Positions 16,851 through 52,272 of a stretch of DNA of 64,000 nt are shown piece by piece (position 1 is the first letter of the stretch; every line of letters begins with the position of its first letter). The DNA comes from Lactarius indigo. Taxonomy: Eukaryota; Basidiomycota; Agaricomycetes; Russulales; Russulaceae. A model generated the notes under the pieces. The model was not told the origin of the DNA. It searched no databases and saw only the letters and a list, made by a program, of their open reading frames with translations. The stretch lies in the NCBI GenBank assembly GCA_025766275.1, contig JAFKAC010000013.1, forward strand, positions 248,001 to 312,000, given 5' to 3'. The translations under genes and the position numbers were made by a program.

Positions 16851-17538
16851 TGTGATGACTCACTGTCACTCGACAGGGGGTCACGACGTAGGCAGAGACT
16901 GGGGGCTGAGAGGGTGTGGAGAAGAGGTGCTCGACGACAGAAGAACACAAGATTCGCTCTTGGCTCAGTAGAGAGGTAGTGGCGCGCGGTGAGCGGGGCA
17001 CTCGAAGGAGCTGTGAGGCAAGAGGGAGGATGTCACAAGTGGACAGTCTGAGGGACTGTCCGTAGAATTGCACCAGCTTATATACTACAGGGGGTGGTCT
17101 GTGTGTAGATTTAGGGCAGGCTTAGGGCCTGTTCACGGGTGCTGCGCAGTACTGCGCAAAGGAACATTCTAGAGACATCTAACAATAGAGTCCAATCAGA
17201 AGAGGTTTAAACATAGAATGACTGCGCCGCAGTCGATGGCACAATCTTGTATCAGGATGGCGTGATTCCGCAGTCAATGCGGGAATTCCCGAGGGGTGGT
17301 GACTTGGGTGATTATCTTTGTTGATTGATCAACAATCAACCGTTGATTAGTACACGTGTACACAGCACGTGTCTTAGGAGACGTGACTGATCACGTGACA
17401 GATCACGTGATCGTTTGAGGACAGAATTCAAACTCCGATTCGGAATTCCCCTTTAGGAAGGTGGTTACATAAGACCGGGCCGGCGCGGACCGGTCCTAAG
17501 CGCCCTTGAGTCACGACCAGGTTTATAGGTTCGTGACA
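16851..17538 (-). repeat. E1 3' LTR
   Basis: 688 bp, TG...CA ends, next to the Tnp2 3' half. At the one informative non-CpG site it shares G (CCGTGAAC) with the E2 5' LTR, not with its own partner at 26,031-26,718, which has A. This supports its origin in the element now partly in E2. Confidence 0.95.
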
Positions 17539-17549
17539 GTATCCCCTTT

Positions 17550-20500: not shown

Positions 20501-21323
20501 GCTGGAAATGACTCGGAATGTGATCGGTGGAAGGCTTGGGAGCAGTCCGTGCTGCTATCTTGGTGCTTGTAGTTACTTTTGCTCGGATGGCAAGGTGGTC
20601 ATACTTGTTAAAGCTGTGAATCCACAGCCAGGGTTCGCAGGCGTCTTTGACGAATGTAGGTTCCAGGGGTTTTGTTTCATCTTCCGTGGGGGGGTAAGCA
20701 TCTTGGGTTGCTTCAAGTTCAAGGATGTTAATAGTCGTGTGTCGTGTCTGCGGCACTTTCGAAGAGATGACAACAGCTGAGGAGGACAGGGTACAGGTTT
20801 TTGGACATCGTGTGAAAGCTATCTTTGGTTGATGCCAATCGATTTCAGGGTTATGTGCTTGGAGCCAATCTGTTCCTAAGATTATATCGTGCTCCCCTAG
20901 AGTAGTTGCGTAAAGTTCCACGGTTTCATCGTGGTAGTTGTCATCAGAAGTTCTGATCCGTAGTCTCTGGATCGTGGTATACCTAACAGATCCCGTCTTG
21001 TTGGGAGACCCATCCACGTTTCTAACTGGTAAGGGTTTAATTAGTGTCCTCATTGTTAGGTTGTTTGCACGCGCAAACCCATCATCCACGATGATGCCCT
21101 CCGTGCCACTGTCCAACAGGGCGCGGGCACTGATTTCCTTGCCAGACTTCTTTCCTACTAGTGTAACTCTGAGAACAATTGAAGGAGCTCTCCTATTCCG
21201 AATTGTTTCTGCAGGTACATGCTCGGCTCCGAGCGTCTCTAGTAGGGAAAGGCCGTGTACAACGCTACTGGCACGAATACTTCCAATCGACAGTGCTACG
21301 ATGGAAGAGCCTAAAAATCCTCG
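17550..21323 (-). CDS. pol: E1 pol polyprotein (protease, RT, RNase H, integrase, chromodomain)
   Basis: Same product as E2 pol (44,015-47,788), where domains are detailed. The frame opens at 21,323 in the -1 phase of gag, has no ATG before the protease motif LDSGTEG, and runs uninterrupted to the stop at 17,550. The reverse transcriptase box YLDDILIF and the integrase D,D-E residues are intact, so the copy is potentially functional. The TAG of gag lies at 21,313-21,311. Confidence 0.93.
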   Translation of the reverse strand, partial: RGFLGSSIVALSIGSIRASSVVHGLSLLETLGAEHVPAETIRNRRAPSIVLRVTLVGKKSGKEISARALLDSGTEGIIVDDGFARANNLTMRTLIKPLPVRNVDGSPNKTGSVRYTTIQRLRIRTSDDNYHDETVELYATTLGEHDIILGTDWLQAHNPEIDWHQPKIAFTRCPKTCTLSSSAVVISSKVPQTRHTTINILELEATQDAYPPTEDETKPLEPTFVKDACEPWLWIHSFNKYDHLAIRAKVTTSTKIAARTAPKPSTDHIPSHFQHYTKVFSETASHRLPQHQPWDHAIDLKPGATMKNCGIYRLTPKESDALKEYISEHLKKGYIRPSKSPMASPFFFVDKKDGKLRPVQDYRALNDITIKNAAPLPLIPELIDKLHGARYFTKLDIRWGYNNIRIREGDEHKAAFKTSLGLFEPTVMTFGLCNAPATFQTFMNQIFESLIDDEHVVVYLDDILIFTEDISSLTALTHEVLQRLERHDLYLKPEKCTFAQTSVEYLGIVISNGQVSMDPAKVAGITEWPTPRTVKQVQAFLGFCNFYWRFIKNYSAVARPLFDLTKKDVPFSWGTPAESAFRTLIKCFTDAPVLALPDHSKPFRLITDASNFATGAVLKQPDALHQWHPIAFLSKSLLPAERHYEICDKELLAIIHALHAFRHYLEGRSDSTEIWSDHNNLAYFMTKQKLSRRQARWALFLSRFQFIIIHKPGVQNKSDALSRRPDHKKGIADEDEKRVLLDTKFFSINTVQRTAVTIHGDKTLRQRIRDIHTYDNEVSTALETLLKNGPRSLTKGLEEWNLEDGVILFRGQIYVPKNDNLRRDIVTQYHDHIATGHPGRWKTYELLSRDFWWPGMSTFVKEYVDGCATCQSTKIKPRTQVPLQPNAIPEEIWGTITMDFITDLPSSHNYDSLFVVVNRLSKAVVISPCNKTITADETARLYLENVWRRTGLPRQVISDRGPQFASKVMQEIWNKLGVKSTLSTAFHPQTDGETERVNQELEQFLRVFCNFQQDNWVDLILFMEFAHNARQHSATHKSPFEVWYGYNPEFIPPIHFKSKIPAAEERLDALNRIRSEVTAALKVAAEVMRNSKSITTPHTFKEGDLVWLEGTNIHTTHPKAKLTPRRHGPFKVLSSWGVNCKLQLPKTWRIHPVFHNSLISPYKENTTHGPNFTRPPPEIVQGEDEHYEVERVLQSKVSPNKKGVLYLIKWKGYPDSENSWLPASQMSHAQDLVQRFHKDNPSAPRPKNISACGIAQR

Positions 21324-22915
21324 TTAATAGGCACCGAACGCGGACGTGCGTCCGGGTCAAAAGGGAGTATCTCTCGATATATCGCTCCAATACTCGCGGG
21401 GTGGTCAGTAGGTGCTTCCTCCTGACTGTCTTCATCAACAAAGGCACCTCGTGCCCTAACGTTGTTGTCAGATTGGTCTCGTTTGGCCTTCATGGCTGCC
21501 GTCTTGGCGTGACATTCTTTAAGTACGTGGCCAGGTTTGCCACAGTACAGACAGAGTTTGTTCTTGAAGCGATACTCTCGCTCTTCCTTGGTAAGTTTGG
21601 TTCTTGGTTTGGTAGTATGAGATGAGGAGGTGTTGACATTTACGCTATCGTCCTCTGCTAGGACGGCTCGTCCTGTGGTGGGTTTATGGGTCTTGTTAAA
21701 CTGGTTAATGGCGTGACCAGCGTAAATTCGATAGGCACGATCGAATTCTCTTGCTTTCTCAACAAGGGTGTCGAAGGTAGTAGGGATGGGGGATATGCCG
21801 AGTAGCTTCATATTTAGAGCCGTTGGGATAGCTTGTCGGAAAGCATACATCTTGGTTTGTTCGTTTGCACCACTTCGCGTAGCATGGGTTGACCATTCTT
21901 GGAACCATTCGTTGAAAGGTCGGGTTCCCATTTTCAGGGAGTACATCTTGTTGGTGGATTCCATGGCAGTGTGACCAGGAACGAAGTGTGCATCGAAGTC
22001 GGTTTTGAACTGTGCCCAGGTGCCGAAGCTAATTGCTGCACCACCAGTTGGGTTTAAGGCTTTCTTTTGCCTATCTTGAGCCCATTCTCCTGCTGAGGTC
22101 CCAACCTTGAAATAGGTAAGGGCAGTAGATACCTTCTTGTTGTCGGAGTTAAAGATATCCTGGTTTAGATGAAAGTAATTGGCCAGGTTGTTCCAAAAGG
22201 CCTCAGCATGGTTGGGTTTGCCGTCAAACGGTTCAGGCGCTGCGCCTAGAATCTTTGCAGGTGCAGGGGCTGCCATGGTTGTACTCGGAGGGGGAACAGG
22301 AGCGGGGGGTATGGAAGTTCTTGGGGAAACTGTTATACTAACAGTGACGGGTGGCGATGGGAGTCGAGGAGGGGGCGTCGGAAATGGCAGACGACTTGGA
22401 CCAGGGGTACTTGGGGAAACTCGAGGGGAAGATGGTCGGGAGGTTACTTGGGAAAGTAGGCCGGAGAGGGTCTTAGTGGTACTTTCTAAGATCTGGGAAA
22501 CTTCAGCTACGTCGCTGTCAGAGTCGGGGGATTTGTCTTTAGTCGGGGTTGCGAACTCTTCGCTCTCGGGTGGCTCTTCCGAGTCAGAAAATCGAACTTT
22601 TCGATTGTTGTTGTACGTCCAAAGCTCTTTGACGAAGTTCCAGCGGACTACTTTTCCGCGATAGGTGCCGTGTAATGTGTCGTAGTCAAGGTTGTCGACC
22701 TTGTTGATGTCTGGGTAAGTTCTTTCGAGATCTTCAAATGTTACGCGTTCTTGGGTCTCAACCTTTGTCCAGGGATGTTTTCCAGTGGGACTAGTGATAT
22801 TCTGTCCTTCCCACCGAGCGTGATAAAGGTTGTCGTCGTCGGAGAAGAAGGTGTCGTAGAAATATACAGGGATGTAGGCTTTCTCTTGTTCCGTAAGAGG
22901 TCGTTGCGTGCTCAT
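21311..22915 (-). CDS. gag: E1 Gag, 534 aa
   Basis: Identical in sequence to the E2 Gag (42,423-44,027): an N-terminal extension of about 212 residues, a retrotransposon Gag core beginning near MAAPAPAKILG, and one CCHC zinc knuckle (CLYCGKPGHVLKEC). The start codon overlaps the ORF D stop as ATGA. Confidence 0.93.
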   Translation of the reverse strand: MSTQRPLTEQEKAYIPVYFYDTFFSDDDNLYHARWEGQNITSPTGKHPWTKVETQERVTFEDLERTYPDINKVDNLDYDTLHGTYRGKVVRWNFVKELWTYNNNRKVRFSDSEEPPESEEFATPTKDKSPDSDSDVAEVSQILESTTKTLSGLLSQVTSRPSSPRVSPSTPGPSRLPFPTPPPRLPSPPVTVSITVSPRTSIPPAPVPPPSTTMAAPAPAKILGAAPEPFDGKPNHAEAFWNNLANYFHLNQDIFNSDNKKVSTALTYFKVGTSAGEWAQDRQKKALNPTGGAAISFGTWAQFKTDFDAHFVPGHTAMESTNKMYSLKMGTRPFNEWFQEWSTHATRSGANEQTKMYAFRQAIPTALNMKLLGISPIPTTFDTLVEKAREFDRAYRIYAGHAINQFNKTHKPTTGRAVLAEDDSVNVNTSSSHTTKPRTKLTKEEREYRFKNKLCLYCGKPGHVLKECHAKTAAMKAKRDQSDNNVRARGAFVDEDSQEEAPTDHPASIGAIYREILPFDPDARPRSVPINEDF

Positions 22916-23598
22916 TCACCTCTTCTGGTGAGGCGGGTGACAGTCCAACTGTCCAAGTTCCAGGGGTAGTAGACTTTGTATGCAGGGAGGAGGATAGCTC
23001 TATCCGGACGATGAGGTCTTTGTGAACGACGGATCCAATGGTATTCTTCCCAAATACCAAAGTGGGTCAGGGTTGTCTTGCTTCTCCACAAGAAGTCTTG
23101 GAAATACAAGGGACTTGTCGAAATCTCGCTTATACGCGTAAGCGGCTGGGAAAAGTACAGGGTTTCGAGATTGTGCCGGTTTTGGTACAACAGAGAACAG
23201 TGTCTTCTGAACACGTCGAGTTCTCGGGGGGTTCTGGTTGGTAGGCTCTTGGTTACTAGGATAGCTTCAGGGAGATGACAATGGATCTCTCGGGGTTGGG
23301 TCTCGAGATACTGAGCTTCGTCACTGCTCGTAGAATGCTGTCTTGCAGTCGGGGTTGCTTGGATACTAGGGTACACCGGTTCGCTTGGTCCGGCTTGGTT
23401 AATACTCGGGAGGGGAATTTGGGTGTTGGTAGCTCGGCGAGCTCTGGGGGCCCTTCTTGAGGTAACAGGGGTACTAGGGGTGGAGGCTATGGGCCGATCG
23501 TCTACTTGGAAGCGACGGTGAATTCTTCTTTGGGCGACGTGTGAGGATGCCAGATTGATTGCCCAATGAATTGGATCCAGGGTTTGACTTGTCAAATT
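22912..23598 (-). CDS. E1 ORF D, methionine-free frame upstream of gag
   Basis: Same as E2 ORF D (41,740-42,426). It has no ATG, basic/Pro-rich N-terminal and aromatic C-terminal parts, and a stop overlapping the gag start. How it is initiated is unknown. Confidence 0.6.
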   Translation of the reverse strand, partial: NLTSQTLDPIHWAINLASSHVAQRRIHRRFQVDDRPIASTPSTPVTSRRAPRARRATNTQIPLPSINQAGPSEPVYPSIQATPTARQHSTSSDEAQYLETQPREIHCHLPEAILVTKSLPTRTPRELDVFRRHCSLLYQNRHNLETLYFSQPLTRISEISTSPLYFQDFLWRSKTTLTHFGIWEEYHWIRRSQRPHRPDRAILLPAYKVYYPWNLDSWTVTRLTRRGE

Positions 23599-23634
23599 TT
23601 ACACTCGTAAAATTATTTTGACAATCTATACTAT

Positions 23635-24670
23635 CTAGTCCTTTTCTCTATAAGGTAGATAGTTAACTCCAGGGGACCACAACACTACGTTGGGGGGTGT
23701 CGGGGGGGTGTTAGGACGATAACCACAGGTGCAAACTTCCTGAGAGCACCAACAGGGGCCTGAGGTCAGAGTTGGTCCCCAACCGTCGTTTGGACTAGGC
23801 GGCTGGTTGGTATCTCCGTTATGTAGGGAGATGTCGGAGTCTGAAGATTCGTCTTCAGTTTCAGGGGAACTAGGGGGTAGTCGATTTGTAATTCGGCGGA
23901 GCAAGGGCGGAGTCCGGAAGGTTTCTCTAGCGTTGAGAATTGAAACTAACTCTGGGTCGTCAGAGGTAGAAGGGGGGTAATGCCAGCTACTAGGGTTGAC
24001 CAGGTTTCAGTCAGGATTGGACAGGGTAGTTTCCCACACAGAGGTGGCGAAGGAATAAGTGAGCTCTGAACTATCGGAGATGACTAGATGGGGGGCAGAG
24101 TCAGGGTGGATGATTACTCGGAGTTCTTGAAAGGAAATCTGTATTTCCTGGTACGTGAGGCGGAGTCGGTCAACGTAATGAAGAGAGAAACCGTCTTCTA
24201 GTTGCCGAATATAGTGATCGCTTCGAGGGGGAACGTGGACAAACCAAAGATAGTCGCTCTTGGCCCACACTAGGAGTTGGTCTGTTGGATGATTGGTGGC
24301 AGAGGCGGAGTTGGAAAGGTGCCAATAAAGGAGTTGTTCGTCGGCAGCCTTGACGACTTCAGAAAGATCGTCAATGAACTCGTGGTAAACCCTTTCGGGG
24401 ATGACTTCTCCAAAATCAAAGAGGTCGATGAGGGTACGTAAGGCGGTAGGGGGTTCTGTCCAACAGTCAAGACGGGGGTTATCGATGAGGTCGTAAGTGG
24501 AAGTGACGGGGTAGTAGCGGTCAAGTTGCCGCTGCCTGTGGGATTCGAAGTTAACTCGGGCTCGCGCAAGCCTTTGTTCTTCAGATAAGTTGAAGGTAAA
24601 TGGAGTAGAAGGCGGCACTTAAATCACTCGATTTAAGTCCAAAACTCGAATAAGTAAACACTTACTTACT
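23635..24670 (-). CDS. E1 ORF B/C, start codon formed by splicing
   Basis: Copy of E2 ORF B/C (40,668-41,703). The candidate intron 24,618-24,669 joins A (24,670) to TG (24,617-24,616), giving an in-frame ATG. One TGA at 24,009-24,007 divides B from C and lies inside a candidate 48-nt intron. Unrecognised protein. Confidence 0.6.
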
Positions 24671-24725
24671 TTGCGTTGCACTTAAAACACTCGTTTCAAG
24701 ACAAGGCAAATATATAACCACTTAT

Positions 24726-26044
24726 CTAAAGCGGTTGGTCGTCGGGAAAAGCGGAAATGAAATCAAAGGGGTCGGCAGGAGTACGAGGGGAAAGACAGTA
24801 AGCAAGAAGGTGGGGGGCAGAGCGCACTAGGTCCTCAAAGAAGTAGGCCTGGTGGTAAGCGTAAATTTGTCCGTTAAAAGAAAATCGTAAGTGTCCGTAA
24901 GTGGTCACAATCCTCCCGTCCAAGAAGTCCTGGATCTCTAGGGTTACTAGAGAGTCAATATACCCTGCTCTATGGACGTTAGCGAGGGGGGCAAAGGCAC
25001 GTCTCAGGCCTTCCCTGAAGTCGTATCGGATAGTTCCAAAGGGGGTGTCGGGGGAAGGGAGGTCGTAGACGGCCTTGGAACAGATATACAGGGGAGGAAA
25101 GTCGGGGTGCTGAGCGGGGTCAACGACGCGCGGGAAGAGGGTGTAAACGTGGGGAGGAAGAAGGCGGAAAGGGGTGACGGAAGGGAAAATCGGGGGAAAA
25201 GAGACAAGGGAAGTGGCGAGGGGAATCTTAGTGATAAGTTCCCGGAGTGTGGTGGAGGCGGGCTGCCAAGATTCTCCTTGGGGGGTGACGACGGCGATGT
25301 ACTGGTGGGGGTGTTCTCCTTGGTGAAGGAGACAAGGAGGCGCCTGATAGGCGGTGGGACCGAGGGGGGGGAGGTTCTCTTGTTCGGGGTGAGGGGCCGG
25401 AGGGAAGACGGGGCCTTGTTCTGCTACTCGCTCGTAGTTAATCGGCGAGTTGGGGGTCGCAAGGCGGGAGGGGAGTGGAACAGGAGACGGAGAGCGACGA
25501 GGAGTCGGAGGAAAAACAGGAGGTGGCGAAGGAGAGCCACGAAGGGAAATAGGAGGGCGGGGGGCCGGAACTCGGAGGGGAGGCGCAGACCTGGCGCGGG
25601 GTTCGGGGGACAAGGGGACAGGGTTCCCGTTGAGGTCGATGAGCTCGAGGACCTCTTCGTAGAATTGGGCAGTGCTGGGGGACAAGGGACGAGGGGATGG
25701 ACGAGGGGTGGCTTCTTCAGTCAGAGCGTAAGGGTAAACTAGTTCGGGGGTTGTGTCCCGAACGAGGGCAACAGGGGCGGGAGGCTCGTTACCTCCGAAG
25801 GTGGCGGGGGTGTAGGGGGCGGTGAAGCGGAGGCTGTCAAGGCGGACAGCAGAGGTGGAGGGAACAAGGGAGACACGGGAAAAGTCGAGGGGGCTACCGT
25901 GATTGTCGAACTCCGACTGGTAGCTGGCAGAATCTCCGTCCCACTGACCGTACTGCGAGAAATCGTACTCGTAGTCAAAGTCAGTCACTGGAGCAGCCCG
26001 GAGTCAGTCTATTGGGTTAGACTGTCCAAGTGTGATGACTCACT
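24726..26044 (-). CDS. E1 ORF A, start codon formed by splicing across the LTR edge
   Basis: Copy of E2 ORF A (39,294-40,612). The candidate intron 25,988-26,043 (donor GTGAGT inside the LTR, acceptor CAG) joins A at 26,044 to TG at 25,987-25,986 to create the ATG. The 420-codon product has no other methionine. Confidence 0.65.
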
Positions 26045-26718
26045 GTCACTCGACAGGGGGTCACGATGTAGGCAGAGACTGGGGGCTGAGAGGGTGTGGA
26101 GAAGAGGTGCTCGACGACAGAAGAACACAAGATTCGCTCTTGGCTCAGTAGAGAGGTAGTGGCGCGCGGTGAGCGGGGCACTCGAAGGAGCTGTGAGGCA
26201 AGAGGGAGGATGTCACAAGTGGACAGTCTGAGGGACTGTCCGTAGAATTGCACCAGCTTATATACTACAGGGGGTGGTCTGTGCATAGATTTAGGGCAGG
26301 CTTAGGGCCTGTTTACGGGTGCTGCGCAGTACTGCGCAAAGGAACATTCTAGAGACATCTAACAATAGAGTCCAATCAGAAGAGGTTTAAACATAGAATG
26401 ACTGCGCCGCAGTCGATGGCGCAATCTTGTATCAGGATGGCGTGATTCCGCAGTCAATGCGGGAATTCCCGAGGGGTGGTGACTTGGGTGATTATCTTTG
26501 TTGATTGATCAACAATCAACCGTTGATTAGTACACGTGTACACAGCACGTGTCTTAGGAGACGTGACTGATCACGTGACAGATCACGTGATCGTTTGAGG
26601 ACAGAATTCAAACTCCGATTCGGAATTCCCCTTTAGGAAGGTGGTTACATAAGACCGGGCCGGCGCGGACCGGTCCTAAGCGCCCTTGAGTCACGACCAG
26701 GTTTATAGGTTCGTGACA
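26031..26718 (-). repeat. E1 5' LTR
   Basis: 688 bp, carries TATATAA and the GTGAGT splice donor. It directly abuts truncated element X at 26,719. At the informative site it carries A (CCGTAAAC), as does the E2 3' LTR. Confidence 0.95.
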
Positions 26719-38619: not shown

Positions 38620-38745
38620 TGTCACGAACCTATAAACCTGGTCGTGACTCAAGGGCGCTTAGGACCGGTCCGCGCCGGCCCGGTCTTATGTAACCACCTT
38701 CCTAAAGGGGAATTCCGAATCGGAGTTTGAATTCTGTCCTCAAAC

Positions 38746-38808
38746 GATCACGTGATCTGTCACGTGATCAGTCACGTCTCCTAAGACACGTGCTGTGTAC
38801 ACGTGTAC
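38746..38808. promoter_or_regulatory. E-box cluster in U3
   Basis: CACGTG at 38,749, 38,761, 38,787 and 38,800, plus CACGTC at 38,773. Two copies sit in 12-bp perfect palindromes (GATCACGTGATC, GTACACGTGTAC). CACGTG is the core site of fungal bHLH factors of the Cbf1/Pho4 type; regulation by them is inference. Confidence 0.6.
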
Positions 38809-39073
38809 TAATCAACGGTTGATTGTTGATCAATCAACAAAGATAATCACCCAAGTCACCACCCCTCGGGAATTCCCGCATTGACTGCGGAATCACGCCA
38901 TCCTGATACAAGATTGCGCCATCGACTGCGGCGCAGTCATTCTATGTTTAAACCTCTTCTGATTGGACTCTATTGTTAGATGTCTCTAGAATGTTCCTTT
39001 GCGCAGTACTGTGCAGCACCCGTGAACAGGCCCTAAGCCTGCCCTAAATCTACGCACAGACCACCCCCTGTAG

Positions 39074-39118
39074 TATATAAGCTGGTGCAATTCTACGGAC
39101 AGTCCCTCAGACTGTCCA
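39074..39118 (+). promoter_or_regulatory. E2 TATA box and predicted transcript 5' end
   Basis: TATATAA at 39,074-39,080. AGACTGTCCA at 39,109-39,118, 35 nt downstream, is complementary to the primer-binding site. GGACAGT (39,098-39,104) and ACTGTCC (39,111-39,117) form a dyad around the predicted start. The start site itself is predicted, not measured. Confidence 0.6.
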
Positions 39119-39293
39119 CTTGTGACATCCTCCCTCTTGCCTCACAGCTCCTTCGAGTGCCCCGCTCACCGCGCGCCACTACCTCTCTACTGAGCCAAGA
39201 GCGAATCTTGTGTTCTTCTGTCGTCGAGCACCTCTTCTCCACACCCTCTCAGCCCCCAGTCTCTGCCTACATCGTGACCCCCTGTCGAGTGAC

Positions 39294-40612
39294 AGTGAGT
39301 CATCACACTTGGACAGTCTAACCCAATAGACTGACTCCGGGCTGCTCCAGTGACTGACTTTGACTACGAGTACGATTTCTCGCAGTACGGTCAGTGGGAC
39401 GGAGATTCTGCCAGCTACCAGTCGGAGTTCGACAATCACGGTAGCCCCCTCGACTTTTCCCGTGTCTCCCTTGTTCCCTCCACCTCTGCTGTCCGCCTTG
39501 ACAGCCTCCGCTTCACCGCCCCCTACACCCCCGCCACCTTCGGAGGTAACGAGCCTCCCGCCCCTGTTGCCCTCGTTCGGGACACAACCCCCGAACTAGT
39601 TTACCCTTACGCTCTGACTGAAGAAGCCACCCCTCGTCCATCCCCTCGTCCCTTGTCCCCCAGCACTGCCCAATTCTACGAAGAGGTCCTCGAGCTCATC
39701 GACCTCAACGGGAACCCTGTCCCCTTGTCCCCCGAACCCCGCGCCAGGTCTGCGCCTCCCCTCCGAGTTCCGGCCCCCCGCCCTCCTATTTCCCTTCGTG
39801 GCTCTCCTTCGCCACCTCCTGTTTTTCCTCCGACTCCTCGTCGCTCTCCGTCTCCTGTTCCACTCCCCTCCCGCCTTGCGACCCCCAACTCGCCGATTAA
39901 CTACGAGCGAGTAGCAGAACAAGGCCCCGTCTTCCCTCCGGCCCCTCACCCCGAACAAGAGAACCTCCCCCCCCTCGGTCCCACCGCCTATCAGGCGCCT
40001 CCTTGTCTCCTTCACCAAGGAGAACACCCCCACCAGTACATCGCCGTCGTCACCCCCCAAGGAGAATCTTGGCAGCCCGCCTCCACCACACTCCGGGAAC
40101 TTATCACTAAGATTCCCCTCGCCACTTCCCTTGTCTCTTTTCCCCCGATTTTCCCTTCCGTCACCCCTTTCCGCCTTCTTCCTCCCCACGTTTACACCCT
40201 CTTCCCGCGCGTCGTTGACCCCGCTCAGCACCCCGACTTTCCTCCCCTGTATATCTGTTCCAAGGCCGTCTACGACCTCCCTTCCCCCGACACCCCCTTT
40301 GGAACTATCCGATACGACTTCAGGGAAGGCCTGAGACGTGCCTTTGCCCCCCTCGCTAACGTCCATAGAGCAGGGTATATTGACTCTCTAGTAACCCTAG
40401 AGATCCAGGACTTCTTGGACGGGAGGATTGTGACCACTTACGGACACTTACGATTTTCTTTTAACGGACAAATTTACGCTTACCACCAGGCCTACTTCTT
40501 TGAGGACCTAGTGCGCTCTGCCCCCCACCTTCTTGCTTACTGTCTTTCCCCTCGTACTCCTGCCGACCCCTTTGATTTCATTTCCGCTTTTCCCGACGAC
40601 CAACCGCTTTAG
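39294..40612 (+). CDS. ORF A: accessory protein, 420 aa, split start codon
   Basis: After splicing, the frame reads MTDFDYEYDFSQYGQWDGDS and stays open to TAG at 40,610-40,612. Without splicing there is no ATG at all: the 420 codons include no internal methionine. Third codon positions are strongly pyrimidine-rich, as in genes. The N-terminal quarter is acidic/aromatic, the middle Pro/Ser/Arg-rich (SLRGSPSPPPVFPPTPRRSP), and the C-terminal half appears folded (YIAVVTPQGESW, LREGL-type helices, IDSLVTLEIQDFLDGRIVTT). PINYERVA is nearly the PIDYERVA of the pol extension in element X, so the protein may share ancestry with it. Family unknown; function not assigned. Confidence 0.7.
39295..39350 (+). 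other. candidate 56-nt intron that creates the ORF A start codon
   Basis: Donor GTGAGT (39,295-39,300), branch consensus CTGAC (39,331-39,335) and acceptor CAG (39,348-39,350); the length is typical of agaric introns. It removes the end of the LTR and the whole primer-binding site. Joining base A (39,294) to TG (39,351-39,352) makes ATG in frame with ORF A, with G at -3. Confidence 0.75.
39310..39319 (+). other. primer-binding site, self-priming type
   Basis: TGGACAGTCT begins two bases after the LTR and pairs over 10 nt with AGACTGTCCA at the predicted transcript start (39,109-39,118). This layout is that of Tf1/sushi elements, whose mRNA 5' end primes minus-strand synthesis; a tRNA primer was not evident. 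Confidence 0.65.
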
Positions 40613-40637
40613 ATAAGTGGTTATATATTTGCCTTGT

Positions 40638-40721
40638 CTTGAAACGAGTGTTTTAAGTGCAACGCAAAGTAAGTAAGTGTTTACTTATTCGAGTTTTGGA
40701 CTTAAATCGAGTGATTTAAGT
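40638..40721 (+). other. hairpin cluster between ORF A and ORF B
   Basis: Three stem-loops in series: 40,638-40,645/40,650-40,657 (8 pairs, one G-U, loop GAGT), 40,670-40,676/40,681-40,687 (7 pairs) and 40,700-40,708/40,713-40,721 (9 perfect pairs, loop GAGT). The second covers the donor of the ORF B intron and the third its acceptor. Confidence 0.6.
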
Positions 40722-41703
40722 GCCGCCTTCTACTCCATTTACCTTCAACTTATCTGAAGAACAAAGGCTTGCGCGAGCCCGAGTTAACTTCGAATCCCAC
40801 AGGCAGCGGCAACTTGACCGCTACTACCCCGTCACTTCCACTTACGACCTCATCGATAACCCCCGTCTTGACTGTTGGACAGAACCCCCTACCGCCTTAC
40901 GTACCCTCATCGACCTCTTTGATTTTGGAGAAGTCATCCCCGAAAGGGTTTACCACGAGTTCATTGACGATCTTTCTGAAGTCGTCAAGGCTGCCGACGA
41001 ACAACTCCTTTATTGGCACCTTTCCAACTCCGCCTCTGCCACCAATCATCCAACAGACCAACTCCTAGTGTGGGCCAAGAGCGACTATCTTTGGTTTGTC
41101 CACGTTCCCCCTCGAAGCGATCACTATATTCGGCAACTAGAAGACGGTTTCTCTCTTCATTACGTTGACCGACTCCGCCTCACGTACCAGGAAATACAGA
41201 TTTCCTTTCAAGAACTCCGAGTAATCATCCACCCTGACTCTGCCCCCCATCTAGTCATCTCCGATAGTTCAGAGCTCACTTATTCCTTCGCCACCTCTGT
41301 GTGGGAAACTACCCTGTCCAATCCTGACTGAAACCTGGTCAACCCTAGTAGCTGGCATTACCCCCCTTCTACCTCTGACGACCCAGAGTTAGTTTCAATT
41401 CTCAACGCTAGAGAAACCTTCCGGACTCCGCCCTTGCTCCGCCGAATTACAAATCGACTACCCCCTAGTTCCCCTGAAACTGAAGACGAATCTTCAGACT
41501 CCGACATCTCCCTACATAACGGAGATACCAACCAGCCGCCTAGTCCAAACGACGGTTGGGGACCAACTCTGACCTCAGGCCCCTGTTGGTGCTCTCAGGA
41601 AGTTTGCACCTGTGGTTATCGTCCTAACACCCCCCCGACACCCCCCAACGTAGTGTTGTGGTCCCCTGGAGTTAACTATCTACCTTATAGAGAAAAGGAC
41701 TAG
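40668..41703 (+). CDS. ORF B/C: accessory protein, split start codon and one internal TGA
   Basis: From the spliced ATG the frame reads PPSTPFTFNLSEEQRLARAR and runs 203 codons to TGA (41,329-41,331), then stays open in the same phase to TAG at 41,701-41,703. A candidate 48-nt intron (41,301-41,348; GTGGGA, branch CTGAC at 41,324-41,328, acceptor CTAG) would remove the TGA and keep the frame; its donor is weaker than the others. B is helical and charged (VYHEFIDDLSEVVKAADEQL). C is Pro/Ser/acidic with a Cys-rich spot (CWCSQEVCTC). No internal methionine occurs. Family unknown. Confidence 0.6.
40669..40720 (+). other. candidate 52-nt intron that creates the ORF B start codon
   Basis: Donor GTAAGT (40,669-40,674) and acceptor AAG (40,718-40,720); the branch site is weak. 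Joining A (40,668) to TG (40,721-40,722) gives an ATG in frame with ORF B. The LTR donor at 39,295 spliced to this same acceptor would also give ATG, because the LTR exon also ends in A. Confidence 0.65.
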
Positions 41704-41713
41704 ATAGTATAGA

Positions 41714-41749
41714 TTGTCAAAATAATTTTACGAGTGTAAAATTTGACAA
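41714..41749 (+). other. hairpin between ORF C and ORF D
   Basis: Stem of 8 plus 6 pairs (41,714-41,721 and 41,726-41,731 with 41,736-41,749), a 4-nt bulge and loop GAGT at 41,732-41,735. The loop and its C-G closing pair equal those of two hairpins upstream of ORF B. Confidence 0.65.
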
Positions 41750-42426
41750 GTCAAACCCTGGATCCAATTCATTGGGCAATCAATCTGGCATCCTCACACG
41801 TCGCCCAAAGAAGAATTCACCGTCGCTTCCAAGTAGACGATCGGCCCATAGCCTCCACCCCTAGTACCCCTGTTACCTCAAGAAGGGCCCCCAGAGCTCG
41901 CCGAGCTACCAACACCCAAATTCCCCTCCCGAGTATTAACCAAGCCGGACCAAGCGAACCGGTGTACCCTAGTATCCAAGCAACCCCGACTGCAAGACAG
42001 CATTCTACGAGCAGTGACGAAGCTCAGTATCTCGAGACCCAACCCCGAGAGATCCATTGTCATCTCCCTGAAGCTATCCTAGTAACCAAGAGCCTACCAA
42101 CCAGAACCCCCCGAGAACTCGACGTGTTCAGAAGACACTGTTCTCTGTTGTACCAAAACCGGCACAATCTCGAAACCCTGTACTTTTCCCAGCCGCTTAC
42201 GCGTATAAGCGAGATTTCGACAAGTCCCTTGTATTTCCAAGACTTCTTGTGGAGAAGCAAGACAACCCTGACCCACTTTGGTATTTGGGAAGAATACCAT
42301 TGGATCCGTCGTTCACAAAGACCTCATCGTCCGGATAGAGCTATCCTCCTCCCTGCATACAAAGTCTACTACCCCTGGAACTTGGACAGTTGGACTGTCA
42401 CCCGCCTCACCAGAAGAGGTGAATGA
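41740..42426 (+). CDS. ORF D: methionine-free frame ending on the gag start
   Basis: Open from TAA (41,737-41,739) to TGA (42,424-42,426). It is in the same phase as B/C but separated from C by three stops (TAG, TAG, TAA), and no good intron was found to bridge them. The N-terminal half is basic and Pro/Ser-rich (RRIHRRFQVDDRPIASTPST). The C-terminal half is richer in aromatic residues (TLYFSQPLTRISEISTSPLY, FQDFLWRSKTTLTHFGIWEE). The stop overlaps the gag start as ATGA. It may be read after reinitiation, as a late exon of another ORF, or not at all. Confidence 0.55.
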   Translation, partial: NLTSQTLDPIHWAINLASSHVAQRRIHRRFQVDDRPIASTPSTPVTSRRAPRARRATNTQIPLPSINQAGPSEPVYPSIQATPTARQHSTSSDEAQYLETQPREIHCHLPEAILVTKSLPTRTPRELDVFRRHCSLLYQNRHNLETLYFSQPLTRISEISTSPLYFQDFLWRSKTTLTHFGIWEEYHWIRRSQRPHRPDRAILLPAYKVYYPWNLDSWTVTRLTRRGE

Positions 42427-44027
42427 GCACGCAACGACCTCTTACGGAACAAGAGAAAGCCTACATCCCTGTATATTTCTACGACACCTTCTTCTCCGAC
42501 GACGACAACCTTTATCACGCTCGGTGGGAAGGACAGAATATCACTAGTCCCACTGGAAAACATCCCTGGACAAAGGTTGAGACCCAAGAACGCGTAACAT
42601 TTGAAGATCTCGAAAGAACTTACCCAGACATCAACAAGGTCGACAACCTTGACTACGACACATTACACGGCACCTATCGCGGAAAAGTAGTCCGCTGGAA
42701 CTTCGTCAAAGAGCTTTGGACGTACAACAACAATCGAAAAGTTCGATTTTCTGACTCGGAAGAGCCACCCGAGAGCGAAGAGTTCGCAACCCCGACTAAA
42801 GACAAATCCCCCGACTCTGACAGCGACGTAGCTGAAGTTTCCCAGATCTTAGAAAGTACCACTAAGACCCTCTCCGGCCTACTTTCCCAAGTAACCTCCC
42901 GACCATCTTCCCCTCGAGTTTCCCCAAGTACCCCTGGTCCAAGTCGTCTGCCATTTCCGACGCCCCCTCCTCGACTCCCATCGCCACCCGTCACTGTTAG
43001 TATAACAGTTTCCCCAAGAACTTCCATACCCCCCGCTCCTGTTCCCCCTCCGAGTACAACCATGGCAGCCCCTGCACCTGCAAAGATTCTAGGCGCAGCG
43101 CCTGAACCGTTTGATGGCAAACCCAACCATGCTGAGGCCTTTTGGAACAACCTGGCCAATTACTTTCATCTAAACCAGGATATCTTTAACTCCGACAACA
43201 AGAAGGTATCTACTGCCCTTACCTATTTCAAGGTTGGGACCTCAGCAGGAGAATGGGCTCAAGATAGGCAAAAGAAAGCCTTAAACCCAACTGGTGGTGC
43301 AGCAATTAGCTTCGGCACCTGGGCACAGTTCAAAACCGACTTCGATGCACACTTCGTTCCTGGTCACACTGCCATGGAATCCACCAACAAGATGTACTCC
43401 CTGAAAATGGGAACCCGACCTTTCAACGAATGGTTCCAAGAATGGTCAACCCATGCTACGCGAAGTGGTGCAAACGAACAAACCAAGATGTATGCTTTCC
43501 GACAAGCTATCCCAACGGCTCTAAATATGAAGCTACTCGGCATATCCCCCATCCCTACTACCTTCGACACCCTTGTTGAGAAAGCAAGAGAATTCGATCG
43601 TGCCTATCGAATTTACGCTGGTCACGCCATTAACCAGTTTAACAAGACCCATAAACCCACCACAGGACGAGCCGTCCTAGCAGAGGACGATAGCGTAAAT
43701 GTCAACACCTCCTCATCTCATACTACCAAACCAAGAACCAAACTTACCAAGGAAGAGCGAGAGTATCGCTTCAAGAACAAACTCTGTCTGTACTGTGGCA
43801 AACCTGGCCACGTACTTAAAGAATGTCACGCCAAGACGGCAGCCATGAAGGCCAAACGAGACCAATCTGACAACAACGTTAGGGCACGAGGTGCCTTTGT
43901 TGATGAAGACAGTCAGGAGGAAGCACCTACTGACCACCCCGCGAGTATTGGAGCGATATATCGAGAGATACTCCCTTTTGACCCGGACGCACGTCCGCGT
44001 TCGGTGCCTATTAACGAGGATTTTTAG
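42423..44027 (+). CDS. gag: E2 Gag, 534 aa
   Basis: The ATG at 42,423 is the first in the whole unspliced transcript and has a poor context (T at -3). The only other ATG before the Gag core is at 43,062, in frame and in strong context (ACCATGG). It starts MAAPAPAKILG just before the conserved Gag core (FDGKPNHAEAFWNNLANYF, FGTWAQFKTDFDAHFV). Residues 1-212 form an extension ending in a Pro/Ser-rich linker. One CCHC knuckle (CLYCGKPGHVLKEC, near residue 455) binds nucleic acid. Gag forms the particle in which reverse transcription happens. The stop TAG at 44,025 follows a U-rich slip site. Confidence 0.93.
   Translation: MSTQRPLTEQEKAYIPVYFYDTFFSDDDNLYHARWEGQNITSPTGKHPWTKVETQERVTFEDLERTYPDINKVDNLDYDTLHGTYRGKVVRWNFVKELWTYNNNRKVRFSDSEEPPESEEFATPTKDKSPDSDSDVAEVSQILESTTKTLSGLLSQVTSRPSSPRVSPSTPGPSRLPFPTPPPRLPSPPVTVSITVSPRTSIPPAPVPPPSTTMAAPAPAKILGAAPEPFDGKPNHAEAFWNNLANYFHLNQDIFNSDNKKVSTALTYFKVGTSAGEWAQDRQKKALNPTGGAAISFGTWAQFKTDFDAHFVPGHTAMESTNKMYSLKMGTRPFNEWFQEWSTHATRSGANEQTKMYAFRQAIPTALNMKLLGISPIPTTFDTLVEKAREFDRAYRIYAGHAINQFNKTHKPTTGRAVLAEDDSVNVNTSSSHTTKPRTKLTKEEREYRFKNKLCLYCGKPGHVLKECHAKTAAMKAKRDQSDNNVRARGAFVDEDSQEEAPTDHPASIGAIYREILPFDPDARPRSVPINEDF
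44012..44027 (+). other. gag-pol -1 frameshift window
   Basis: The pol phase is closed by TAA at 44,012-44,014 and gag by TAG at 44,025-44,027, so a -1 shift must fall in the 10 nt between. They hold five T (44,021-44,025): TTT in the P site can re-pair one base back as TTT, moving TAG to TTA. Confidence 0.7.
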
Positions 44028-47000
44028 GCTCTTCCATCGTAGCACTGTCGATTGGAAGTATTCGTGCCAGTAGCGTTGTACACGGCCTTTCCCTACTAGA
44101 GACGCTCGGAGCCGAGCATGTACCTGCAGAAACAATTCGGAATAGGAGAGCTCCTTCAATTGTTCTCAGAGTTACACTAGTAGGAAAGAAGTCTGGCAAG
44201 GAAATCAGTGCCCGCGCCCTGTTGGACAGTGGCACGGAGGGCATCATCGTGGATGATGGGTTTGCGCGTGCAAACAACCTAACAATGAGGACACTAATTA
44301 AACCCTTACCAGTTAGAAACGTGGATGGGTCTCCCAACAAGACGGGATCTGTTAGGTATACCACGATCCAGAGACTACGGATCAGAACTTCTGATGACAA
44401 CTACCACGATGAAACCGTGGAACTTTACGCAACTACTCTAGGGGAGCACGATATAATCTTAGGAACAGATTGGCTCCAAGCACATAACCCTGAAATCGAT
44501 TGGCATCAACCAAAGATAGCTTTCACACGATGTCCAAAAACCTGTACCCTGTCCTCCTCAGCTGTTGTCATCTCTTCGAAAGTGCCGCAGACACGACACA
44601 CGACTATTAACATCCTTGAACTTGAAGCAACCCAAGATGCTTACCCCCCCACGGAAGATGAAACAAAACCCCTGGAACCTACATTCGTCAAAGACGCCTG
44701 CGAACCCTGGCTGTGGATTCACAGCTTTAACAAGTATGACCACCTTGCCATCCGAGCAAAAGTAACTACAAGCACCAAGATAGCAGCACGGACTGCTCCC
44801 AAGCCTTCCACCGATCACATTCCGAGTCATTTCCAGCATTACACCAAAGTATTCAGTGAAACCGCGTCCCACCGACTTCCCCAACACCAACCTTGGGATC
44901 ACGCAATTGACCTCAAGCCAGGAGCCACTATGAAAAATTGTGGCATTTATCGACTTACGCCTAAGGAATCTGATGCCCTCAAAGAATACATCTCTGAACA
45001 CCTGAAGAAAGGTTACATTCGACCGTCTAAGTCACCCATGGCCTCCCCCTTCTTCTTTGTTGACAAGAAGGATGGCAAACTACGCCCTGTACAAGACTAC
45101 CGTGCCCTCAATGATATAACCATCAAGAACGCAGCACCCCTTCCTCTTATCCCTGAGCTCATTGACAAACTCCATGGCGCGCGCTATTTCACCAAGCTGG
45201 ATATCCGCTGGGGCTACAACAATATCCGCATCCGAGAAGGCGATGAACATAAGGCAGCATTCAAGACATCATTAGGTCTTTTCGAACCCACAGTAATGAC
45301 CTTCGGCCTCTGCAACGCTCCCGCCACATTCCAAACATTCATGAACCAAATCTTCGAGTCCTTAATCGACGATGAACATGTGGTCGTCTACCTCGATGAC
45401 ATCTTAATCTTCACGGAAGATATCTCCTCACTCACGGCATTGACGCACGAGGTGCTTCAACGACTAGAACGTCACGACCTCTACCTGAAACCTGAAAAGT
45501 GTACATTTGCACAAACCTCTGTTGAATACCTTGGCATCGTCATTTCCAATGGCCAAGTATCCATGGATCCCGCAAAAGTTGCTGGGATCACCGAGTGGCC
45601 CACCCCGCGAACAGTCAAACAAGTCCAAGCCTTTCTAGGCTTCTGTAACTTTTACTGGCGGTTTATCAAGAATTACTCTGCCGTCGCCCGACCACTCTTC
45701 GACCTCACCAAGAAAGATGTACCTTTTTCTTGGGGTACCCCGGCGGAAAGCGCTTTCCGCACCCTAATCAAATGCTTCACGGACGCGCCTGTCCTAGCCC
45801 TTCCCGACCACTCCAAACCCTTCCGACTCATCACCGATGCCAGTAACTTCGCCACGGGCGCGGTCCTCAAACAACCCGACGCTCTGCACCAATGGCACCC
45901 CATTGCCTTTCTATCGAAATCTCTCCTCCCGGCTGAACGACATTACGAGATTTGCGATAAGGAACTCTTGGCCATTATTCATGCCCTTCACGCCTTCCGA
46001 CACTACCTCGAGGGACGTAGTGATTCCACCAAAATCTGGTCCGACCACAATAACCTGGCCTACTTTATGACAAAGCAGAAACTTTCCCGTCGACAAGCGC
46101 GGTGGGCGCTTTTCCTGTCTCGTTTCCAGTTCATCATCATCCACAAGCCTGGTGTTCAGAACAAGTCTGATGCACTGTCCCGGCGTCCAGACCATAAAAA
46201 GGGGATAGCGGATGAAGATGAAAAACGAGTGCTCCTGGATACAAAGTTTTTCTCGATCAACACAGTACAAAGAACTGCAGTTACCATTCACGGCGACAAA
46301 ACTCTTCGACAACGCATCCGAGACATACACACCTACGACAACGAAGTCAGCACAGCCTTAGAAACCCTCTTGAAGAATGGCCCCCGTTCCTTAACCAAGG
46401 GGCTAGAAGAGTGGAACTTAGAAGATGGAGTCATCTTATTCCGAGGACAAATCTATGTACCCAAAAACGACAACTTACGAAGAGACATCGTAACCCAGTA
46501 TCACGACCACATCGCCACGGGACATCCGGGGCGATGGAAAACTTACGAACTCCTTTCCCGAGACTTTTGGTGGCCAGGGATGTCGACGTTTGTCAAAGAA
46601 TACGTCGATGGATGTGCCACTTGCCAATCTACGAAAATCAAACCACGAACCCAAGTACCTCTGCAACCCAATGCTATTCCTGAAGAAATCTGGGGAACCA
46701 TCACAATGGACTTCATCACCGACCTTCCCTCCTCCCACAACTACGACTCGCTGTTCGTAGTCGTCAACCGACTCAGTAAAGCTGTAGTCATTTCCCCGTG
46801 TAACAAGACCATCACAGCAGACGAAACTGCTCGACTCTACCTGGAAAACGTCTGGAGACGTACCGGCCTTCCCCGACAAGTTATTTCCGACAGAGGCCCT
46901 CAGTTTGCATCGAAAGTAATGCAAGAAATCTGGAACAAACTAGGAGTCAAATCCACCCTGTCCACAGCTTTCCACCCGCAAACAGATGGAGAAACCGAGC

Positions 47001-47788
47001 GTGTAAATCAAGAACTTGAACAGTTCCTCCGTGTCTTCTGTAACTTCCAACAAGACAACTGGGTAGACCTAATCCTGTTCATGGAATTCGCGCATAACGC
47101 ACGGCAGCATAGCGCGACTCACAAGTCACCCTTTGAAGTGTGGTATGGGTACAATCCCGAGTTCATTCCCCCCATCCACTTCAAAAGCAAGATACCCGCA
47201 GCCGAAGAAAGACTAGACGCATTGAACCGAATCCGCTCCGAAGTCACTGCAGCCCTCAAAGTTGCTGCGGAAGTAATGAGAAATTCCAAGTCAATCACGA
47301 CCCCTCATACATTCAAAGAAGGCGATCTGGTCTGGCTGGAAGGGACTAATATCCACACTACCCATCCCAAGGCTAAACTCACCCCTCGACGCCATGGCCC
47401 ATTTAAAGTCCTATCCTCCTGGGGAGTTAACTGTAAACTCCAACTTCCAAAAACATGGCGAATCCACCCAGTCTTCCATAATTCCTTGATCTCCCCATAC
47501 AAAGAAAACACCACGCATGGCCCCAACTTCACCCGACCACCCCCCGAAATTGTCCAAGGGGAAGACGAACATTATGAAGTCGAAAGAGTCCTGCAGTCAA
47601 AGGTATCGCCCAACAAGAAAGGCGTACTTTACCTGATCAAATGGAAGGGGTACCCTGACTCCGAGAATTCCTGGCTTCCTGCCTCCCAAATGTCCCACGC
47701 CCAAGATCTTGTCCAGCGTTTCCACAAGGACAACCCCTCCGCCCCTCGACCAAAGAACATTAGTGCTCGTGGAATAGCACAGCGTTAA
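44015..47788 (+). CDS. pol: E2 Pol polyprotein (protease, RT, RNase H, integrase, chromodomain)
   Basis: Open in the -1 phase from 44,015. The first methionine comes only after the protease motif, so expression needs frameshifting, not internal initiation. Order: aspartic protease (LDSGTEG, 44,219), reverse transcriptase (FFFVDKKDGKLRPVQDYRAL; catalytic YLDDILIF at 45,389), RNase H (LITDASNFATGAVL), integrase with its zinc HHCC part (HIATGHPGRWK ... CATCQ) and D,D-E residues (TMDFITDLP; VISDRGPQF; PQTDGETERV), a GPF-type C-terminal region (RRHGPFKVL), and a chromodomain (YEVERVLQS, LYLIKWKGYPDSENSWLP, near 47,570-47,740). This order, integrase last plus chromodomain, defines chromoviruses. 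No stop or frameshift damages it. Confidence 0.95.
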   Translation, partial: RGFLGSSIVALSIGSIRASSVVHGLSLLETLGAEHVPAETIRNRRAPSIVLRVTLVGKKSGKEISARALLDSGTEGIIVDDGFARANNLTMRTLIKPLPVRNVDGSPNKTGSVRYTTIQRLRIRTSDDNYHDETVELYATTLGEHDIILGTDWLQAHNPEIDWHQPKIAFTRCPKTCTLSSSAVVISSKVPQTRHTTINILELEATQDAYPPTEDETKPLEPTFVKDACEPWLWIHSFNKYDHLAIRAKVTTSTKIAARTAPKPSTDHIPSHFQHYTKVFSETASHRLPQHQPWDHAIDLKPGATMKNCGIYRLTPKESDALKEYISEHLKKGYIRPSKSPMASPFFFVDKKDGKLRPVQDYRALNDITIKNAAPLPLIPELIDKLHGARYFTKLDIRWGYNNIRIREGDEHKAAFKTSLGLFEPTVMTFGLCNAPATFQTFMNQIFESLIDDEHVVVYLDDILIFTEDISSLTALTHEVLQRLERHDLYLKPEKCTFAQTSVEYLGIVISNGQVSMDPAKVAGITEWPTPRTVKQVQAFLGFCNFYWRFIKNYSAVARPLFDLTKKDVPFSWGTPAESAFRTLIKCFTDAPVLALPDHSKPFRLITDASNFATGAVLKQPDALHQWHPIAFLSKSLLPAERHYEICDKELLAIIHALHAFRHYLEGRSDSTKIWSDHNNLAYFMTKQKLSRRQARWALFLSRFQFIIIHKPGVQNKSDALSRRPDHKKGIADEDEKRVLLDTKFFSINTVQRTAVTIHGDKTLRQRIRDIHTYDNEVSTALETLLKNGPRSLTKGLEEWNLEDGVILFRGQIYVPKNDNLRRDIVTQYHDHIATGHPGRWKTYELLSRDFWWPGMSTFVKEYVDGCATCQSTKIKPRTQVPLQPNAIPEEIWGTITMDFITDLPSSHNYDSLFVVVNRLSKAVVISPCNKTITADETARLYLENVWRRTGLPRQVISDRGPQFASKVMQEIWNKLGVKSTLSTAFHPQTDGETERVNQELEQFLRVFCNFQQDNWVDLILFMEFAHNARQHSATHKSPFEVWYGYNPEFIPPIHFKSKIPAAEERLDALNRIRSEVTAALKVAAEVMRNSKSITTPHTFKEGDLVWLEGTNIHTTHPKAKLTPRRHGPFKVLSSWGVNCKLQLPKTWRIHPVFHNSLISPYKENTTHGPNFTRPPPEIVQGEDEHYEVERVLQSKVSPNKKGVLYLIKWKGYPDSENSWLPASQMSHAQDLVQRFHKDNPSAPRPKNISARGIAQR

Positions 47789-47799
47789 AAAGGGGATAC
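47787..47799 (+). other. E2 polypurine tract
   Basis: AAAAAGGGGATAC directly precedes the 3' LTR; this is the usual primer site for plus-strand DNA. It overlaps the end of pol by two bases. Confidence 0.8.
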
Positions 47800-48487
47800 T
47801 GTCACGAACCTATAAACCTGGTCGTGACTCAAGGGCGCTTAGGACCGGTCCGCGCCGGCCCGGTCTTATGTAACCACCTTCCTAAAGGGGAATTCCGAAT
47901 CGGAGTTTGAATTCTGTCCTCAAACGATCACGTGATCTGTCACGTGATCATTCACGTCTCCTAAGACATGTGCTGTGTACACGTGTACTAATCAACGGTT
48001 GATTGTTGATCAATCAACAAAGATAATCACCCAAGTCACCACCCCTCGGGAATTCCCGCATTGACTGCGGAATCACGCCATCCTGATACAAGATTGCACC
48101 ATCGACTGCGGCGCAGTCATTCTATGTTTAAACCTCTTCTGATTGGACTCTATTGTTAGATGTCTCTAGAATGTTCCTTTGCGCAGTACTGCACAGCACC
48201 CGTAAACAGGCCCTAAGCCTGCCCTAAATCTACGCACAGACCACCCCCTGTAGTATATAAGCTGGTGCAATTCTACGGACAGTCCCTCAGACTGTCCACT
48301 TGTGACATCCTCCCTCTTGCCTCACAGCTCCTTCGAGTGCCCCGCTCACCGCGCGCCACTACCTCTCTACTGAGCCAAGAGCGAATCTTGTGTTCTTCTG
48401 TCGTCGAGCACCTCTTCTCCACACCCTCTCAGCCCCCAGTCTCTGCCTATGTCGTGACCCCCTGTCGAGTGACAGTGAGTCATCACA
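47800..48487 (+). repeat. E2 3' LTR
   Basis: 688 bp. It carries A at the informative non-CpG site like the E1 5' LTR, has one further private change (ATCATTCACG), and abuts DUF6589 coding sequence at 48,488. Confidence 0.95.
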
Positions 48488-49644: not shown

Positions 49645-49646
49645 TT

Positions 49647-49657
49647 AAGACCAAGAT
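49647..49657 (+). other. E3 primer-binding site, self-priming type
   Basis: AAGACCAAGAT, two bases after the LTR, pairs over 11 nt with ATCTTGGTCTT at 49,395-49,405, which lies 34 nt below the TATA box. The same pairing exists in E4 (52,256-52,266 with 52,032-52,042). Confidence 0.65.
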
Positions 49658-49663
49658 CCAATC

Positions 49664-51718: not shown

Positions 51719-51773
51719 ACCCGTCAGTCTGGGTGAGGGCTTTACGATGTAATTCTGTAATTGTGACAACACG

Positions 51774-51778
51774 CTATC
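51774..51778 (+). other. target-site duplication of E4, left copy
   Basis: CTATC here and at 59,476-59,480, directly outside the E4 LTRs. Confidence 0.9.
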
Positions 51779-52253: not shown

Positions 52254-52272
52254 TTAAGACCAAGATACCATC

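Follow-up and report, generated by a model that had tools for sequence, protein, structure and literature searches.

Retroelements depend on a single RNA that has to be shared between translation and replication. The chromovirus E2 of Lactarius indigo raises the question of how this might be achieved in an element whose long leader is free of AUG and contains three open reading frames upstream of gag, the first of which (ORF A) has no ATG in its unspliced frame. The initial annotation of the locus suggested that a short intron across the edge of the 5' LTR acts as a switch, its removal building the start codon of ORF A and at the same time eliminating the primer-binding site (PBS). Here, it is proposed that the splice state of two introns selects the product that is made from the AUG-free leader with its ORFs A, B and C, a reading of the sequence which we consider likely. 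If this is true, one short intron makes both decisions, supplying a start codon and removing the priming site, and the AUG-free leader of 3.3 kb results in a clear rule that predicts the protein product and can be tested. The many copies of the element allow comparative as well as RNA-level tests. Moreover, gene callers that require an ATG would miss ORFs such as A and B or assign them a wrong start. All positions refer to the window, i.e., the whole stretch of 64,000 nt that was analysed, and are collected in Table 1.

Table 1. Positions of the features of E2 and of its inverted copy E1 in the window; a slash marks a putative splice junction.
Feature	Positions	Strand	Remarks
E1, inverted near-identical copy of E2	16851..26718	-	repeat search and comparison with E2
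5' LTR of E2	38620..39307	+	TGTCAC...ATCACA; repeat search and LTR comparison
ATG-free stretch	38991..42422	+	3,432 nt; longest in the window
TATA box	39074..39080	+	35 nt upstream of the self-primer
Putative self-primer AGACTGTCCA	39109..39118	+	at the predicted 5' end of the RNA; exactly complementary to the PBS
Hairpin H1, CTGT-CGAGTG-ACAG	39282..39295	+	abuts donor 1
Putative intron 1	39295..39350	+	56 nt; A 39,294; donor GTGAGT 39,295-39,300; branch CTGAC 39,331-39,335; acceptor CCAG with AG 39,349-39,350; TG 39,351-39,352; would make the A/TG of ORF A
PBS TGGACAGTCT	39310..39319	+	within intron 1
ORF A after the join	39351..40612	+	420 codons counting the spliced ATG; no other Met
Hairpin H1b, loop CGAGTG	40638..40657	+	upstream of donor 2
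Hairpin pairing donor 2 with downstream sequence	40668..40689	+	folding
Putative intron 2	40669..40720	+	52 nt; A/GTAAGT ... AAG/TG with AG 40,719-40,720; would make the ATG of ORF B
Hairpin H2, ACTTAAAT-CGAGTG-ATTTAAGT	40700..40721	+	at acceptor 2
ORF B	40721..41703	+	E1/E2 frame cut by TGA 41,329-41,331, codon 203
Hairpin H3, loop CGAGTG	41724..41743	+	upstream of ORF C
ORF C	41758..42426	+	probable start CTG 41,758, A at -3, G at +4; no ATG within
gag	42423..44027	+	ATG at 42,423
pol: protease, RT-RNase H, integrase, chromodomain	44015..47788	+	Pfam matches
3' LTR of E2	47800..48487	+	repeat search and LTR comparison

The element, its copies and its self-primer

E2 is a Ty3/Gypsy chromovirus. 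Its Pfam matches follow each other in the order Retrotrans_gag, RVT_1, RT_RNaseH, rve and Chromo, i.e., gag precedes the RT-RNase H-integrase part and the chromodomain is located at the C-terminus of the integrase, and no env ORF was found between the end of pol (47,788) and the start of the 3' LTR (47,800). The initial annotation had pointed to E1 as a second copy with the same splice signals. These signals are present in E1, but it gives no independent support for those of E2 because the two copies differ at 14 of 9,868 positions and have the TGA within ORF B in common. Other loci with the frame intact in this region have no stop at that codon, and it seems that a copy whose ORF B was already interrupted has been mobilised or duplicated. 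Neither E1 nor E2 is bordered by a matching pair of 5-nt flanks; CGTGG ends the left flank of E2 (38,620-48,487) and begins the flank of E1 (16,851-26,718) after its 3' LTR, and the arrangement suggests an inversion or an exchange involving two insertions. A different chromovirus family is located at 49,142-63,725, with direct repeats of approximately 300 nt, several gag/pol frames and an ATG density of 10-12 per kb.

In the 90.3-Mb source genome at least 103 matches to ORF A were found (100 of 162 first-look candidates were scored). Among the matches listed, those of nearly full length have identities of approximately 86-100% and 61-74%, with partial matches scattered between. Fifty loci were fetched from this genome, L001 and L002 being E1 and E2, and two subfamilies are distinguished among them, a close group and another one; as the loci were selected by their ORF A match, copies without ORF A are under-represented. 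ORF A itself has no Pfam match, and the named proteins closest to it are from Lactarius sanguifluus, L. deliciosus and L. hengduanensis. In three ORF A copies (C261, C290 and C213) the matches omit the same stretch of approximately 32 residues near the N-terminus within a single open frame.

The putative self-primer lies near the predicted 5' end of the RNA and is complementary to the PBS in 10 of 10 nt. The self-primer, as AGACTGTCCACTTGTGAC, is identical in all 50 loci and the PBS is present in 49 of them. The primer of E2 looks like a self-primer of the Tf1/sushi type within the LTR, and in this respect the initial account of reverse transcription has to be corrected; its central point, the position of the PBS inside intron 1, is retained. 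RNA spliced at intron 1 could not be copied because the self-priming PBS would be lost together with the intron. To our knowledge, Tf1 lacks accessory ORFs upstream of gag, and no start-making introns are known for it. The Tf1/sushi chromoviruses, such as Tf1 of fission yeast, and E2 have in common the chromodomain integrase and a 10-nt LTR self-primer that is complementary to a PBS beside the 5' LTR. In the available part of PMC10085805, the self-priming layout of the Tf1/sushi elements comprises a second short pairing as part of a pretzel structure, and such a second pairing is also seen beside the self-primer of E2 (TGTGA/TCACA, by eye). Approximately half of the copies read CCACA here and have one pair fewer. 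Near the end of ORF C, at 42,384-42,401, GGACAGTTGGACTGTCAC resembles the self-primer and the PBS and could form a hairpin; in the other subfamily it differs by one base.

Putative introns 1 and 2 and the starts of ORFs A and B

Intron 1 would begin 13 nt upstream of the end of the 5' LTR and extend across the LTR edge and the PBS, and its donor, branch motif, acceptor and length are found exactly as the initial annotation had given them. Its removal would join an A to a TG and thereby create the sole AUG of ORF A, in agreement with the earlier proposal that this is the only Met of the frame. The predicted intron resembles spliceosomal introns of the host, having GT-AG ends, a branch motif and a host-like length: five introns of host actin, which were checked by the restored protein sequence, are 49-59 nt long and one of them has GTGAGT.

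An alignment of family copies had been suggested as a check, and in the 50 loci the signals turned out to be conserved. The donor A/GTGAGT is present in 50 of 50 loci, the bases before the junction being GACA in 49 and GGCA in one, and both CTGAC and AG/TG are in place in 49. The interior of the intron is variable at many positions and its length is 56 nt in 32 loci and 55 nt in 17; the acceptor always reads CAG or TAG followed by TG (49/49), and reading across the junction yields M in each of these 49 loci. The locus set apart in these counts, L048, carries an insertion between the donor and the acceptor with ORF A still open. An intact ORF A beside a lost donor or acceptor, which would have spoken against splicing, did not occur through a point mutation in any of the 50 loci, and the insertion in L048 is the sole exception.

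Donor patterns (GTRAGN, GTATGY and GTRCGT) were searched in a leader alignment of 16 copies, the rows of which were chosen from the two subfamilies; nine rows from the close group stop near 42,110, approximately 300 nt short of gag. With sites present in at least 13 rows regarded as conserved, only 39,295 and 40,669 were obtained, each in 16/16 rows and each following an A. Throughout the genome, donor plus PBS in the form GTGAGT-N4 gave 60 exact matches, and allowing two mismatches added two more, each with one mismatch outside the donor. This count leaves out E2-type copies (N3), and the conservation that it shows is no proof of splicing because the LTR end and the PBS are also constrained. 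As the donor of intron 1 is located in the LTR end beside the PBS, part of its conservation may be due to the requirements of reverse transcription.

The dN/dS values of ORF A are 0.15-0.18 between subfamilies (five pairs) and 0.07-0.18 within them (eight pairs), i.e., low in 13/13 pairs, and judged by these substitution patterns ORF A is under purifying selection. Thirteen of 33 ORF A homologues, all of them Lactarius gene models, read ...SDM-SDY as predicted by the A/TG join; this reading is expected from CTGTCGAGTGACA joined to TG or from a near variant, as judged from the protein alone. In the Lactarius models reading across the junction, the protein continues upstream of A/TG, and their M is therefore internal. 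In P0022 and P0027 the donor is used with another acceptor, P0005, P0023, P0026 and P0032 read the unspliced V, P0002 and P0024 differ, and P0033, which has 43 members and comes from a contig of 1,904 bp, begins with M at a position where its homologue P0023 has V. The N-terminal region is shown by 22 of the 33 homologues and absent in 11; the join of ORF B, again judged from the protein, is present in six.

The initial annotation had treated the building of a start codon as a single event concerning ORF A. This is probably too narrow: just as the loss of intron 1 would supply the ATG of ORF A, that of intron 2 would supply the ATG of ORF B, the join giving ATG CCG CCT, and ORF C probably starts at CUG (see below). 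Intron 2 is found in 49 of 50 loci, L048 failing for both introns. It is 47-53 nt long across the loci and the bases before its donor vary, the last one being A in 49/49; unlike intron 1, it has no CTGAC. ORF B is open for 327-346 codons in 32/49 loci. Its dN/dS, calculated for the first 195 codons, is 0.06 in the single close pair and ranges from 0.17 to 0.63 in four further pairs, the three highest values coming from pairs containing a copy with an early stop. Joined, intron-less forms of intron 1 or intron 2 were not found by exact patterns in the 90.3-Mb genome (very common words skipped); for intron 2 this absence is also expected if the intron is never removed.

Alternatively, ORFs A and B might be translated from the unspliced RNA by non-AUG initiation at GUG (39,350 and 40,720), aided by hairpins, and the introns might be a chance resemblance. 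A GTG does open both unspliced frames, that of ORF B directly after a stop codon, ORF C seems to be started at CUG, and CGAGTG hairpins precede ORFs B and C in E2. However, initiation at GUG is poor in eukaryotes and leaves unexplained the two A-preceded donors in 49/50 loci, the CTGAC motif and the YAG of every listed variant. As, in addition, Lactarius models splice at this junction, we regard non-AUG initiation of ORFs A and B as very unlikely.

The ATG-free leader and the start of ORF C

A splicing switch needs an ATG-free leader because only then would the unspliced RNA feed scanning ribosomes to gag. The next longest ATG-free run on the plus strand of the window has 639 nt, and on the minus strand 3,371 nt in E1 compare with 639 nt. 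Between 39,115 and 42,422 the leader has no ATG and, on the same strand, 30 CAT; 20.0 ATG are expected from a first-order Markov model, and the minimum in 500 draws was five. The ATG of gag is the first one after the predicted RNA start, with no AUG earlier. In E2 it overlaps the stop codon of ORF C as ATGA (42,423-42,426), and in the other subfamily ORF C ends a few bases before this ATG.

Among 49 loci scanned, 26 have no ATG between the self-primer and gag or the end of the locus. In the close group (L001-L030), 20 of 30 loci are without ATG over approximately 3.0 kb, these loci stopping approximately 300 nt before gag, and the other ten carry 1-5. For L031-L050 the scan took in 19 loci, L047 being left out by the search pattern. 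Six of these have a single ATG approximately 3.2 kb downstream of the donor, which was read as the gag start in L036, L041 and L044 and assigned by position in L037, L038 and L042. The remaining 13 of the 19 exceed a single ATG at the gag position, six having 2-7 and seven having 18-31; the latter seven comprise L048 and six loci in which ORF B contains stops.

It might be argued that the leader is AUG-free for another reason, such as its base or protein composition, and that the accessory ORFs are unexpressed. The leader is indeed rich in C, and few out-of-frame ATG result from the synonymous codons that it uses. For ORFs A, B and C, 20, 24 and 45 of 1,000 synonymous-codon shuffles reach zero out-of-frame ATG with their own codons, and 0, 23 and 92 of 1,000 with element-wide codon usage; per leader ORF, the lack of out-of-frame ATG is only moderately rare. 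However, composition does not account for the number of CAT on the same strand or for the 73 ATG in the 5.4 kb of gag and pol (in-frame/out-of-frame: gag 8/11, pol 13/41, compared to 0/0 in ORF A, in the first 203 codons of ORF B and in ORF C), and a dN/dS far below 1 in ORF A argues against unexpressed ORFs. Such an alternative reason, with unexpressed ORFs, is therefore extremely improbable.

According to the accessible text of PMC5902531, long ORFs without internal AUG let ribosomes scan to the main ORF in rice tungro bacilliform virus (RTBV) and badnaviruses, and ORF I of RTBV starts at the non-AUG codon AUU. The upstream ORFs of E2 are likewise without internal AUG; a weak AUG for the second ORF, as in RTBV-type leaders, was not found. 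Furthermore, compared to the RTBV leader as outlined in the same text, with approximately 900 nt and leaky scanning, the leader of E2 has approximately 3.3 kb and contains two ORFs that would obtain their AUG by splicing (PMC5902531).

For ORF C, the start is probably a CUG. In 47 of 50 loci the codon reads CTG GA(T/A) CC with G at +4, and A is present at -3 in 47/47. In the close group an A-run of variable length precedes the CTG, which fits a start at this codon. Seven homologues of ORF C were found, the alignment being continuous from about LE/LD; in several homologues on short contigs an M precedes this point by a few residues, and the start of ORF C may differ in other lineages. A third intron, serving ORF C, was considered and rejected, as the 16-copy alignment contains no third conserved donor-pattern site. 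The AG/TG at 41,733 was tried as an acceptor for ORF C; it is conserved in 15/16 rows, but TAA follows in E2.

Proposed use of the splice sites and relation to known systems

In the mechanism that we favour, both leader introns would be removed by the spliceosome and the ribosome would scan from the cap to the first AUG, the splicing state thereby selecting the product. Unspliced RNA would be translated into Gag-Pol and also serve as genome, RNA spliced at intron 1 would give ORF A and could not be copied with the self-priming site lost, and RNA spliced at intron 2 alone would give ORF B. At the CUG, which has a good context, a minority of ribosomes would initiate and make ORF C, and all others would continue scanning as far as gag. 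Of the switch envisaged in the initial annotation, the conserved host-like intron, the loss of the PBS with this intron and the ATG-free leader stand, while splicing itself, its proportion and its control are what we infer from them.

The introns could also be real and constitutive, ORF A being produced by normal splicing without a switch and the unspliced genomes representing a leftover fraction. The splice sites do agree well with the consensus of fungal introns and are host-like, and we know of no regulatory protein for the splicing of this leader. Nevertheless, the element must retain unspliced RNA bearing the PBS, and the ATG-free leader implies selection for translation of gag from unspliced RNA. 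Furthermore, the interval between ORFs A and B folds far better than its shuffles (z -4.32, 0/200 as stable), with donor 2 and acceptor 2 in stable stems. Taken together, constitutive splicing is rather unlikely, and we retain the selection of the product by the splice state.

Sequences around the splice sites form hairpins with a common loop. CGAGTG is found with stems of 4 to 8 bp at 39,286, 40,645, 40,708 and 41,731, and the remaining CGAGTG in E2 have stems of 0-1 bp, except for the copy of the first hairpin in the 3' LTR. Three stems of at least 7 bp with a common loop were obtained in 0/200 Markov-resampled leaders. Upon folding, the C and the G of the hexamer are paired and GAGU is left as the loop. 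The H1 region folds slightly better than shuffles (z -1.65, 12/200 as stable) and the H3 region alone no better (z -0.81). The stem of H2 appears, read by eye, to covary between the subfamilies, with T-A changed to C-G beside the loop, A-T to T-A further out, and one bulged T. H3 was found in 26/30 close-group loci versus 0/18 of L033-L050, the other subfamily, and is not a general feature since it is missing in 22 of 50 loci. It is our guess that the CGAGUG hairpins regulate splice-site use or packaging.

In a self-regulated variant of the switch, ORF A or another early protein from a spliced message would bind the CGAGUG hairpins at the splice sites and shut splicing off, after which the RNA would serve as Gag-Pol message and genome instead of as accessory messages. 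The coat proteins of ssRNA phages are binders of RNA hairpins, and they are the best structural matches, statistically weak, of the confidently predicted C-terminal part of ORF A. We consider such self-regulation unlikely.

In the literature covered, which included few subscription papers, no title or abstract opening was recognised as describing a retroelement in which splicing across the LTR edge builds a start codon. The errantiviruses (gypsy, ZAM, tom) are Ty3/Gypsy elements with a subgenomic spliced message, as is proposed for E2; their message serves env after pol, whereas E2 has no env ORF there. Where the major splice donor of a retrovirus precedes the PBS, as in the foamy viruses, the subgenomic messages lose the PBS. 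These foamy-type retroviruses differ from E2 in that large introns lead to distant ORFs and the start codons are encoded and not assembled. In the part of PMC7828637 that is available, foamy virus pol and env are expressed from spliced messages. For the Ty1/Copia element BARE1, the accessible portion of PMC3735527 describes that splicing separates the Gag message from the genome RNA and that DNA copies of the spliced RNA are not amplifiable. As described there, the intron of BARE1 differs from intron 1 of E2 in making a stop codon after gag; no start codon is created by it, and the PBS is not removed (PMC3735527).
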